NCBI RefSeq assembly: GCF_900095825.1
Contig: NZ_LT608315.1
Location: 2,409,567-2,473,566 of the forward strand
Reading direction: 5' to 3'
DNA length: 64,000 bases
Source: Acidaminococcus massiliensis
Lineage (GTDB): Bacteria; Bacillota; Negativicutes; Acidaminococcales; Acidaminococcaceae
Shown: positions 14,466 through 49,502 of the stretch, piece after piece
Numbering within the stretch: position 1 is the first letter of the stretch
Layout of the letters: each line of letters begins with the position of its first letter
The notes under the pieces: generated by a model
The model's input: only the letters and a program-made list of their open reading frames with translations
Database searches by the model: none
What the model was told of the DNA's origin: nothing
Position numbers and translations under genes: made by a program

Positions 14466-14493
14466 CAAAAAAACGCCCGCATAAAGCGGGCGT
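14466..14493 (-). terminator. Terminator of the late (structural-lysis) operon
   Basis: ACGCCCGC and GCGGGCGT pair around five bases. On the minus strand they are followed by TTTTTTTGTTTG. It lies 17 bp past the last lysis gene and separates the late operon from the accessory operon. Confidence 0.85.
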
Positions 14494-14509: not shown

Positions 14510-14962
14510 TTATTTTTTAATTGCAACGCAAGCAAGCAGGGCGGCGGCGGCTTCCCAGGCGTTCCGTTGTCGTTTCAGCCGGAGCCTAGTTCGCTTTTCC
14601 TCTTGCGCGAATTTCCGCAATGATTCGTTGGTTCTCTTGATTAAGCTCTGTTGCTCTGCCGATTGCGCTGTTAATCTGTCTATTTGACTTTTCAATTTCT
14701 GTGACAGTTCCTGTGCTTGCGTTAACTGTTCCTGCAAGGTCGTTAACTGTACTCCCTGCCCGTTGCAGGTCCTCTGTAATTCCTCGTTGATTCTCGCTAA
14801 TTCTCTGGAGTTCCTTTCCAGCGTCGTTAACTCCTGCTCGCTCAATGTATACATCTTCTCTGGCCCGGTACTGGTATCCAATGATTGCGCCGCATAACAG
14901 GGCAACGCAAACAGCAGCAATGACAGGCAACAGGCCGCGAATACGGTTTTTAATTTCTGCAA
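14510..14962 (-). CDS. Exported coiled-coil protein, candidate outer spanin-like partner, nested in the gene above it
   Basis: About 150 residues in a frame overlapping the 14586-14981 gene. The start (QKLKTVFAACCLSLLLFALPCYAAQS) is a signal peptide; the cysteines do not fit a standard lipobox well. A long heptad-rich helix follows (LSEQELTTLERNSRELARINEELQ...QIDRLTAQSAEQQSLIKRTNESLRKF), then a basic stretch and a short hydrophobic end (RQRNAWEAAAALLACVAIKK). I prefer the TTG at 14962, 9 nt after AAAGGGG; the TTG at 14971 is too close to that site. It reaches 76 bp beyond its overlapping partner. Late-operon position and architecture suggest a role in envelope disruption. Confidence 0.6.
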   Translation of the reverse strand: MQKLKTVFAACCLSLLLFALPCYAAQSLDTSTGPEKMYTLSEQELTTLERNSRELARINEELQRTCNGQGVQLTTLQEQLTQAQELSQKLKSQIDRLTAQSAEQQSLIKRTNESLRKFAQEEKRTRLRLKRQRNAWEAAAALLACVAIKK

Positions 14963-14981
14963 TTCTATCAACCCCTTTCAT
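14586..14981 (-). CDS. Membrane-anchored coiled-coil protein, candidate inner spanin (Rz-like)
   Basis: 131 residues. A short cytoplasmic start (MKGVDRIAEIKNRIRG) precedes one transmembrane helix (LLPVIAAVCVALLCGAIIGYQY). A long Gln/Glu-rich helical periplasmic part follows (KELQRISENQRGITEDLQ...EIEKSNRQINSAIGRATELNQENQRIIAEIRA). This is the layout of an Rz-type inner spanin, which fuses inner and outer membranes at lysis. The ATG has GAGGG 8 nt upstream, overlapping the end of the previous gene. A second coiled-coil gene is embedded in another frame of the same DNA. Confidence 0.65.
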   Translation of the reverse strand: MKGVDRIAEIKNRIRGLLPVIAAVCVALLCGAIIGYQYRAREDVYIERAGVNDAGKELQRISENQRGITEDLQRAGSTVNDLAGTVNASTGTVTEIEKSNRQINSAIGRATELNQENQRIIAEIRARGKAN

Positions 14982-15389
14982 TTATTCATCCCTCACTGTC
15001 AACATGACGTCGTTCCCGGCGTCGATAATCATACGGGACAGCTCCACCCCGTCGGCGTTCTGCATCCGCAAACAACCGTAGGTCGGCTCCCATCCTTGAT
15101 AATCCGCGTACGGGTCCTCCAGGTCGCTGCCGCCCCCGTGAATGTCCCGCCCCCGCGGGTCACCGGACGTGATATAAAAATTCCCGTAGGCGGGGCCGTA
15201 GCACCCGTCCGTGATTTCCGCGCTTGCGTGGGTATAGTCGCCGTTGGGCAAGCTGCCCCGCGGGTCGCCCTCTTCGTTGTATCCCGGGAAAAAGTCAGAA
15301 CGGCACTCCCATTGCCCGATTACGTTATAATTTTCGTCCATTGCAAAAATTTCCTGCTTGTTCCTCTGGAACTGGATTTCTTTCAGCAT
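14982..15389 (-). CDS. L,D-transpeptidase-fold (YkuD-like) cell-wall protein, candidate phage lysin
   Basis: About 135 residues. The motif DIHGGG (His about 84) followed by TYGCLRMQNADG (Cys about 106) matches the YkuD His...(S/Y)-x-G-C-(I/L)-R active site. YkuD enzymes form or cut 3-3 peptide bonds in peptidoglycan. No other amidase, muramidase or endopeptidase lysin is visible in the phage apart from the tail NlpC/P60 protein. This protein sits between holin-like and spanin-like genes, so it may be the endolysin. No signal peptide is seen, so a holin would be needed for export. The ATG follows AAGGAGA; the frame is open further upstream. Confidence 0.65.
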   Translation of the reverse strand: MLKEIQFQRNKQEIFAMDENYNVIGQWECRSDFFPGYNEEGDPRGSLPNGDYTHASAEITDGCYGPAYGNFYITSGDPRGRDIHGGGSDLEDPYADYQGWEPTYGCLRMQNADGVELSRMIIDAGNDVMLTVRDE

Positions 15390-15690
15390 TGTTTTCTCCT
15401 TCCAGTTTGTCCGGGATTTTATCGTGGTTGCGATTGACAAGATACCCGGCAATTAAAATTGCCCCGGAAATCACCGCCGGGGCAAAACTGGTATTGACGT
15501 TTTTTCGCAATTCGTCCAGCATACGGAAATACCAATCTGAATTTAAGCGGTACACCCACCCCGTTGTCCATGCCATAGGCATAAGACAAAGTTCGAAAAG
15601 CAGGGCGGCCGCTATAATCATGATAAAGCCCATGGGGGACAATACCGCGGATTTCCAGCGGTTAAGTTGGCGCAACAGGCGTTTAATCAT
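15325..15690 (-). CDS. Membrane protein of the lysis cassette, candidate holin
   Basis: 121 residues with two hydrophobic segments, SPMGFIMIIAAALLFELCLM and SFAPAVISGAILIAGYLV, and a charged hydrophilic tail (NHDKIPDKLEGENNAERNPVPEE). Its 3' end overlaps the start of the lysin-like gene by 65 bp. Size, topology and position suit a class II holin or its regulator. The next gene upstream also encodes a small membrane protein, so which of the two forms the lesion is not clear. Confidence 0.55.
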   Translation of the reverse strand: MIKRLLRQLNRWKSAVLSPMGFIMIIAAALLFELCLMPMAWTTGWVYRLNSDWYFRMLDELRKNVNTSFAPAVISGAILIAGYLVNRNHDKIPDKLEGENNAERNPVPEEQAGNFCNGRKL

Positions 15691-15980
15691 TTTATCGCTT
15701 CTTTCATCCGCAATACCGCATCGTGTTTTGCGTCCATCACCCCGTTATCCGCCAATTTTTCGTAGACGGAAAACATTTCTTCAAAATTCTGTTTTTCGTC
15801 CGCTGTGGGCGGCTGTTTTTGAAATTGGACGTACATATCGTTAAGGCAACCACGAAGGATTAACTGCATACCCTTACGCATGGCTTTCAGCCCGGAAAAA
15901 TACGCATAAGCGTAGCCGGACACGGCCCCGATGAAAAGGCCGATGATTACGTTAAAAACGTTGATAAGAATGTCGGTCAT
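15687..15980 (-). CDS. Small membrane protein of the lysis cassette
   Basis: 97 residues with one N-terminal hydrophobic segment (LINVFNVIIGLFIGAVSGYAYAYFSG) and an amphipathic, charged remainder (KMQLILRG..NFEEMFSVYEKLADNGVMDAKHDAVLRMKEAI). It overlaps the downstream two-helix gene by 4 bp (ATGA), so the two are translationally coupled. It may be a holin, antiholin or lysis accessory protein. Confidence 0.5.
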   Translation of the reverse strand: MTDILINVFNVIIGLFIGAVSGYAYAYFSGLKAMRKGMQLILRGCLNDMYVQFQKQPPTADEKQNFEEMFSVYEKLADNGVMDAKHDAVLRMKEAIK

Positions 15981-48323: not shown

Positions 48324-49502
48324 ATGGAAATCATCCACTCGCCCAATGGCACCTGGGGCTTCCGCACTGTCGTTGGGCTTGACCCGGCAACGGGCAAACG
48401 CAAGCGCGTGTCCCGGTTTGGCTTCCCGCGTCGCAAAGACGCGGAGGCCGCGCTACGGGAAATCCAGGAATCAGTCAAGAAACAACAATATGTACCCGGA
48501 TCCGCAATCACTTTTGAAGCTTTTGCCGCCGACTGGCTAAAAATCTATAGCCAGCAGGTAAAGGTATCAACGGTCAGGATACGGGAACATAATCTTGCCT
48601 GGTTAAATCGTTATTTTGCTAAAATTCCCCTGCAGCAGATAACCAAACGCGATTACCAGATGTTTTTGCTTGACCTCAAAGATAAATTGCAGCCCAACAC
48701 GATTTGCGGCGTACACGCTACCGCCAAAATGATCTTTAAAAAAGCCAGGGAATTTGAGCTTATTTACAACGATCCGACGGAGTTTGCATCGCCGCCTCGC
48801 CCGTCCCGGAAAATTATTGACCCGGAGGCGGACGTACCCCAGTACCTTGAAAAAGCGGACTTGCAACGTTTCCTGGACGAATCCCGAAAACACACCCAGT
48901 ACGGCGATTACACAGCACTGTTTATGCTGCTGGCCTATACGGGCCTCCGTATAGGGGAAGCCCTTGCCCTGACGTGGGAAGATATTGATCTGGACGCCGC
49001 AACGCTCAAAGTAACCAAAACGCTGTATAATCCCGGCAACCGCTATAATGCTTACCAGCTCTTGCCGCCCAAAACGCGGACGTCAGCGCGGATTTTATCG
49101 CTGCCCACTCAGTTAGTCGCGGAACTCAAAAAATACCGCCTGGAGGCAACGTCGCGCCGGTTTACGTTTGGGGAATTATGGCATTATCCCCCAGGCTCCC
49201 GGGGCGGCTTCGTGTTTACGGCCTTAATGCACCCGGGGTACCCGCTGACCCAGCGCGTAGTCCAGAACCACATAGACCACATACAGGCGGCCATGGTGCC
49301 GCCCTTGCCCTGCCGGGTGCATCCTCATATTTTCCGGCACACTCACGCATCATTATTGGCCGAGGCAGGCGTTGACCTGGTGGATATAATGGACCGGTTA
49401 GGCCATTCCGATGATACCACAACACGTAAGATTTACTTGCATGTTACAAAACACATGAAACGCCGGGCGGCGGAAAAATTTGCGGAACTCATGGAACGGT
49501 AG
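48324..49502 (+). CDS. int: Tyrosine-family phage integrase
   Basis: 392 residues. An AP2-like arm-binding start (NGTWGFRTVVGLDPATGKRKRVSRFGF) and a core-binding SAM-like domain precede the catalytic part. The catalytic residues are Arg in TGLRIGEAL, His335-x2-Arg338 in HPHIFRHTHASLL, His361 in RLGHSD and Tyr371 in KIYLHVT. It recombines attP with attB at the groEL 3' end. The attachment site lies 270 bp downstream. Translation begins 3 bp after the previous gene. Confidence 0.95.
   Translation: MEIIHSPNGTWGFRTVVGLDPATGKRKRVSRFGFPRRKDAEAALREIQESVKKQQYVPGSAITFEAFAADWLKIYSQQVKVSTVRIREHNLAWLNRYFAKIPLQQITKRDYQMFLLDLKDKLQPNTICGVHATAKMIFKKAREFELIYNDPTEFASPPRPSRKIIDPEADVPQYLEKADLQRFLDESRKHTQYGDYTALFMLLAYTGLRIGEALALTWEDIDLDAATLKVTKTLYNPGNRYNAYQLLPPKTRTSARILSLPTQLVAELKKYRLEATSRRFTFGELWHYPPGSRGGFVFTALMHPGYPLTQRVVQNHIDHIQAAMVPPLPCRVHPHIFRHTHASLLAEAGVDLVDIMDRLGHSDDTTTRKIYLHVTKHMKRRAAEKFAELMER

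Follow-up and report, generated by a model that had tools for sequence, protein, structure and literature searches.

Two overlapping frames in Negativicutes prophages as candidate partners of a lipid-free, spanin-like system

Two overlapping minus-strand frames, both open, sit just 5′ of a terminator in an Acidaminococcus (Negativicutes) prophage, and they raise the question of whether the same bases encode two envelope proteins and what such a pair would do for the phage. The window, i.e., the whole stretch of DNA analysed here, comprises 64,000 nucleotides of Acidaminococcus massiliensis (contig NZ_LT608315.1). When ten of its proteins were scanned against PHROGs, the matches included terminase, portal, head protease, major head, tape measure, tail proteins, helicase and primase, and an integrase was located by PHROGs at 48324-49502. 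Since these matches cover the main phage gene sets, the region was taken to be a prophage. The two frames (referred to as F1 and F2) and the elements that define them are as follows:

14586..14981, minus strand: F1, i-spanin-like protein of 131 aa, with an N-terminal membrane helix followed by a coiled coil (sequence and structure model)
14510..14962, minus strand: F2, partner protein of 150 aa, read from TTG 14962 in frame +1 of F1 (sequence and structure model)
14972..14977, minus strand: AAGGGG, likely Shine-Dalgarno sequence of F2, within F1 (sequence reading)
14586..14962, minus strand: stretch read in both frames (frame comparison and dual-coding tests)
14871..14936, minus strand: membrane helix of F1 (residues 16-37), in the same bases as the F2 signal peptide (sequence; N-terminal hydropathy of F1 proteins)
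14891..14962, minus strand: signal peptide of F2, probably cut by signal peptidase I behind residue 24 (C-Y-A) (sequence; [ASC]-x-A counts)
14473..14493, minus strand: terminator-like hairpin behind the F1/F2 pair (sequence)

F1 starts with an ATG and begins directly after the stop codon of the preceding gene. The listed F2 ORF, with its stop at 14510, opens at TTG 14971 and contains a second TTG at 14962, the latter being the likelier start judging from the AAGGGG located 9 nt before it. The first-pass annotation had described two overlapping envelope-type frames, and this description was confirmed, both frames being open as stated, F1 with a helix and coil and F2 with a signal peptide and coil. 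It had also singled out the embedded frame for running past the end of its partner. This overhang is indeed present (F2 extends 76 nt beyond the F1 stop and ends just before the terminator-like hairpin), but it is not unusual, as 228 of 528 two-component spanin gene pairs are classed as overlapped in the compilation of Kongari et al. (PMC6139136). The uncommon feature is the near-coincidence of the F1 and F2 start positions; for embedded o-spanins, the same compilation places the start at 0.4-0.5 of the i-spanin length in ca. 70% of cases.

Among 59 genomes of the family, single-sequence searches detected F1 in 11 and F2 in 22. A profile built from 25 F2 proteins matched 156 of 380 Negativicutes genomes at E ≤ 1e-3 and 93 of them, in 19 families, at E ≤ 1e-10 (with at most 10 candidates scored per genome, and loci taken from among the matches listed). 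At E ≤ 1e-10, 384 genomes drawn from other classes of the phylum gave no match (the phylum draw held 398 genomes, 14 of which belonged to the class by listing order). Because out-of-class genomes match down to 3.3e-9 (the best such match, in a 385-aa frame), class matches with E above 1e-10 were not counted. In four weak out-of-class matches taken as controls, the F1 frame was open over only 0.13-0.36, and none of the four matched the F1 profile. Further relatives were retrieved by scanning IMG/VR (29 relatives) and by a strict-pattern scan of GTDB genomes (six, all Acidaminococcus, Acidaminococcaceae or Selenomonadales), and tblastn of the F2 proteins of the window, L150, L141 and L127 against 50,697 phage records returned no match. 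The window pair has no Pfam family above cut-off, its relatives giving coiled-coil-type matches, and the 29 listed matches to solved structures were mostly generic coiled coils, with no lysis protein by name. A few members weakly match PHROG "Rz-like spanin" families, which may reflect coiled-coil similarity.

Some genomes carry more than one copy. The host genome of the window contains the pair a second time in diverged form, preceded by a gene resembling an amidase by eye, and the genomes G080, G226 and G317 yielded six, seven and four F2 matches, respectively, among the matches listed, which suggests several prophages or fragments. Six tail-only ORFs of 54-65 aa (L159, L160 and L161 from Acidaminococcus genomes, and L162-L164) keep only the basic and hydrophobic tail of F2 and are probably prophage remnants; L163 also matches the F1 profile. 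The tail-only ORFs L048 and L077 likewise look like remnants. The viral contig of L077, with only the F2 tail ORF, also encodes, near 1026-2278, a protein of 224 aa that contains a hydrophobic segment, looks coiled and is perhaps another envelope protein.

To what extent both frames code was examined in 119 distinct loci, of which 109 carry an F2 of at least 120 codons, the other 10 being tail-only ORFs or broken copies. These 109 test loci were found via F2 alone, with entry restricted to full-length F2 (at least 120 codons), and in all 109 an F1 frame in the same relation stayed open along a 0.68-1.00 fraction of the open F2 frame; the longest open stretch in the third frame measured 51-237 nt, mostly near 100. 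Random synonymous rewriting that preserved the F2 protein and local codon usage gave an expectation of ca. 0.19 of 109 loci with F1 this open, versus the 109 observed, and the reverse rewriting, with F1 fixed, gave 0.7 of 109 for F2. In HMM scoring of 89 loci, from which the HMM training loci were excluded, the real F1 beat all 20 synonymous shuffles in each locus (mean +58 bits), and the real F2 did the same (mean +69 bits). Moreover, in 21 disjoint close pairs hand-picked out of 49, differences at F2 codon positions 1/2/3 numbered 341/362/507 in the overlap vs. 77/63/160 in the F2-only tail, i.e., codon positions vary more evenly inside the overlap (chi-square p-value of 4.6e-4).

A further 36 loci of the class, chosen to include ones with stops (not deduplicated, and kept outside the shuffle tests), had both frames open in 28 cases, bringing the overall count to 137 of 155 loci from Negativicutes and viral contigs; F2 lies in frame +1 of F1, in the overlapped arrangement, in all 137. 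Sixty regions were hand-chosen among the matches listed, mostly stop-free and full-length, six of them tail-only. Of the 36 added loci, L168, L169, L170, L173 and L175 show truncation or decay, a contig end interrupts L174, and L171 misses the start of the signal region. The decayed copy L173 has an F2 frame that continues into an F1-like C-terminus (QSILARIRE), as from one frameshift inside the overlap. The first-pass annotation had held that homologues with one frame broken by stops and the other conserved would speak against the pair. Such homologues exist in one direction: in 3 of 155 loci (L022/L097, L033/L104 and L172), F2 contains an in-frame stop and F1 is open; the reverse, an intact F2 with a broken F1, was seen in none of the 155. 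Set against the 137 doubly open loci, the three look like the decay of single prophages. These three loci would suit a reading with a single coding frame and a second that is a by-product of it, as would the observation that codon usage neither separates the frames nor tells which is older (F1 –0.054, F2 –0.041, third frame –0.069; 102 loci). Given that each frame is conserved beyond what the other implies, in openness, shuffles and codon positions alike, that reading is hardly credible, and we conclude, as judged from sequence, that F1 and F2 both code.

The anatomy of the pair was compared over 108 F2 proteins (L101, for which no start was found, having been dropped) and 107 F1 proteins (L129 lacking an F1 start); set A5 omits the near-copies L053, L070 and L073, and set A6 omits these as well as L064 and L066, which had odd start picks. 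With starts picked automatically, the start of F2 is offset by 4 nt from that of F1 in 52 of 107 loci, often as ATGTATG, and F2 starts with ATG in 77 of 108. The overhang of F2 past the F1 stop, which holds its tail, most commonly measures 64 nt (34/108 loci). In L130, L131, L134 and L144 (4/109), the ends of the two genes lie no more than 8 nt apart, so that there the tail too is read in both frames.

The F1 N-terminal helix has a dG-like value below 0 in 91% of 107 proteins. AlphaFold models F1 poorly (mean pLDDT 68.6), with helices at 3-46, 54-87 and 93-130. By prediction, F1 thereby combines the N-terminal transmembrane domain and the periplasmic domain of an i-spanin. For F2, a helix at 2-24, a linker and a single helix at 42-149 were modelled (mean pLDDT 88.6). 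Its signal region ends in ALPCYA-AQS in the window, and an [ASC]-x-A site follows the hydrophobic core in 85/108 F2 vs. 32/107 F1; a looser A-x-A pattern occurs in 97/108 F2 vs. 67/107 F1, so that F1 often scores too. At least one periplasmic cysteine was present in 66 of 108 pairs, the window pair having one, in the F2 coil; among known two-component spanins, Kongari et al. (PMC6139136) give 507 of 528 with at least one in either partner.

The pair is accompanied by candidate lysis genes:

14982..15389, minus strand: YkuD-like protein of 135 aa in the endolysin slot (YkuD E=0.0031, 18.5 bits, below the Pfam cut-off of 23.4)
15325-15690 and 15687-15980, minus strand: two small proteins with hydrophobic segments, putative holin candidates (matching PHROGs of unknown function)

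The YkuD-like protein carries HGGG...YGCLRMQNADG, has relatives in 22 of 101 upstream neighbours and is possibly an endolysin type with an L,D-transpeptidase fold. An upstream neighbour in the right place was present in 101 of 109 loci, and in up to 85 of these 101 (fewer if any protein was counted twice) it is a wall hydrolase. The Pfam families found upstream were Amidase_3 (24), Amidase_2 (16), GH25 (13), M15_3 (4), VgrG3-like (3), M15_2 (2) and glucosaminidase (1), with single places taken by PemK, a holin and families of unknown function. The hydrolase family varies between loci while the F1/F2 pair stays. As small membrane proteins within a lysis cassette, F1 and F2 might instead serve the holin side of lysis, i.e., as holin, antiholin or in endolysin release, rather than outer-membrane disruption, and PHROG holin and hemolysin families were each matched by 1 of 25 members. 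This role is improbable, since long periplasmic coils and an F2 signal peptide are ill-suited to a holin, and since F2 is absent at E ≤ 1e-10 from all 384 out-of-class genomes of the phylum, whose phages also need holins.

If F1 and F2 act on the outer membrane, the anchor of F2 is the next question. No clear lipobox had been noted in the embedded frame at first, and this holds both for the window and widely: a lipobox-like string occurs in 3 of 108 F2, two lying within the hydrophobic core and that of L143 being ambiguous, so none is convincing. Scanning the prophage region for a lipobox gave none, and a looser scan of the whole window gave none either, so that the window offered no positive control. 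Outside the 108, L030 and L033 have FAGC at the core end, possibly an odd lipobox. LolA was found in 0 of 379 Negativicutes genomes vs. a match in 6 of 14 control genomes, and the host genome, with two Omp85 (BamA) and 15 SLH matches and no LolA, is as expected of a diderm Negativicute. In the parts of the literature drawn on here, Antunes et al. (PMC5007114) found neither LolA nor LolB in Negativicutes and reported LolA in Halanaerobiales, and a 2024 review (PMC11784454) describes diderm Terrabacteria as lacking outer-membrane lipoproteins and, Halanaerobiales excepted, the Lol pathway. Because no LolA or Lol system was found there, a lipoprotein o-spanin would have no known route to the Negativicutes outer membrane, and F2 may lack a lipid anchor because its hosts have no known Lol pathway, of which LolA was the component tested. 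The strings in the three F2 and the FAGC of L030 and L033 could still be taken to make F2 an outer-membrane lipoprotein with an unrecognised lipobox, and the pair a canonical two-component spanin. Against the lack of a cysteine at a shared place, the [ASC]-x-A sites in 85 of 108 F2 and the missing LolA, this is very improbable.

The C-terminus of F2 provides another candidate anchor:

14561..14599, minus strand: F2 basic motif EKRTRLRLKRQRN, before the tail (residue conservation in 31 F2)
14519..14560, minus strand: F2 hydrophobic C-terminal tail, inside the 76-nt overhang past the F1 stop (uncharged run in 108 F2)

In the window, the long coil of F2 is followed by EKRTRLRLKRQRN and then AWEAAAALLACVAIKK. 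The hydrophobic end claimed by the first-pass annotation is real but short (AWEAAAALLACVAI, with one E inside and KK after). Among 108 F2, the uncharged run of the tail has a median of 14 residues, usually with K or R next, and the 20 residues preceding it have a mean net charge of +3.2. Within the basic motif, R126, Q132, R133 and N134 are invariant and K123 and K130 are at least 90% conserved (31 F2). As a membrane span the tail is borderline (dG-like median of –0.12, 52% below 0), and its computed features do not indicate which membrane it enters.

Both could be inner-membrane proteins, F1 of type II (N-in) and F2 of type I with its C-terminal tail in that membrane, reaching the outer membrane only via their coils, OmpM or the wall. 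The family TIGR04211 SH3_and_anchor, which we take to be YgiM-like, bears on this arrangement. Like F2, it has a coil followed by a C-terminal anchor region, and 11 of 25 F2 match it weakly; unlike it, F2 belongs to a phage lysis cassette and has no SH3 part, its match beginning at profile position 61 or later. Of eight F2 scanned singly, three match, the best at 27.0 bits, below the cut-off of 65 bits. Since this is a C-terminal-anchor family, the matches favour an inner-membrane tail, and Kongari et al. (PMC6139136) named a type I protein with a C-terminal transmembrane domain as a possible unrecognised spanin. Nevertheless, the tail is short for such an anchor (median of 14 uncharged residues), most basic charges lie N-terminal, i.e., periplasmic, of it, contrary to what the positive-inside rule demands of a type I anchor, and the arrangement leaves no direct contact with the outer membrane. 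We therefore regard an inner-membrane F2 as possible but rather unlikely.

The reading we prefer, with a probability of about 0.62, is that F1 and F2 together form a spanin-like complex, each contributing one half, and that this complex opens the outer membrane in the final step of phage lysis in Negativicutes. A spanin-like pair in a Negativicute phage, as proposed at the outset, is supported by the dual coding, the place behind the endolysin, the restriction to a diderm class within the phylum and the absent lipobox; we infer the disruption itself, as well as the localisation and lysis function of both proteins. Ribosomes would start F1 and F2 from neighbouring start codons on one message, as the sequence implies. 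The N-terminal helix of F1 is predicted to keep the protein in the inner membrane and to leave its coil in the periplasm, and F2 is predicted to be exported by Sec and cut by signal peptidase I. Mature F2 would then be a rod of ca. 108 helical residues, ca. 16 nm long, with a basic patch and then a short hydrophobic helix at its end. Whether this tail inserts in the outer membrane, replacing the lipid of a normal o-spanin, we consider an even bet. After the endolysin has cut the wall, the coils might pair and pull or fuse both membranes, by analogy with the Rz/Rz1 model.

With lambda Rz/Rz1 and P2 LysB/LysC, the pair shares an N-terminal membrane helix with a periplasmic domain, an exported partner in the +1 frame and its place as a lysis-cassette pair, but F2 is no lipoprotein, its mature part is mostly helical (by prediction) with a hydrophobic tail, and it starts near the same base as F1. 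The T1 gp11 unimolecular spanin is likewise exported with a C-terminal hydrophobic segment, whereas F2 has no N-terminal lipid signal and is paired with a second, overlapping protein; an N-terminal lipobox and C-terminal transmembrane domain in one protein, as in unimolecular spanins, are not what is found here. The gene arrangement is one of those of two-component spanins (embedded, overlapped or separated, in frame +1 or –1). The pair as proposed works like a two-component spanin, yet is not a member as defined, because F2 is not the lipoprotein that an o-spanin is. Kongari et al. (PMC6139136) define o-spanins as lipoproteins and state that their own criteria would miss other anchors; the viewed tables of that paper include no Negativicutes phages. 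In open-licence literature on spanins, Negativicutes, Veillonella or Firmicutes, lysis and Lol, no report of the pair was found among titles and abstract beginnings.

Finally, lipobox filters can hide systems like F1/F2. Table 10 of Kongari et al. (PMC6139136) lists 91 phage genomes without a recognised spanin, 29 of which, by our own count from that table, have cyanobacterial or Thermus hosts. A 2025 survey in ISME J (PMC12596118), in the part drawn on here, reports Gram-positive and cyanobacterial phages without spanins and discarded o-spanin candidates that had no lipobox. The pair is a class-wide case of two envelope proteins encoded by the same bases. It may represent an independent, lipid-free means of outer-membrane disruption common to phages that infect an entire class of diderm Firmicutes lacking Lol. 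The place of the lipoprotein o-spanin would be taken by a rod that spans the periplasm and has a cationic-hydrophobic anchor at its C-terminus, with both partners encoded by the same few hundred bases over almost all of F1 and started from adjacent codons. We see the odds of this proposition as evenly balanced. F1/F2 offers a concrete, testable candidate for the way in which phages might breach an outer membrane to which no lipoproteins are delivered.
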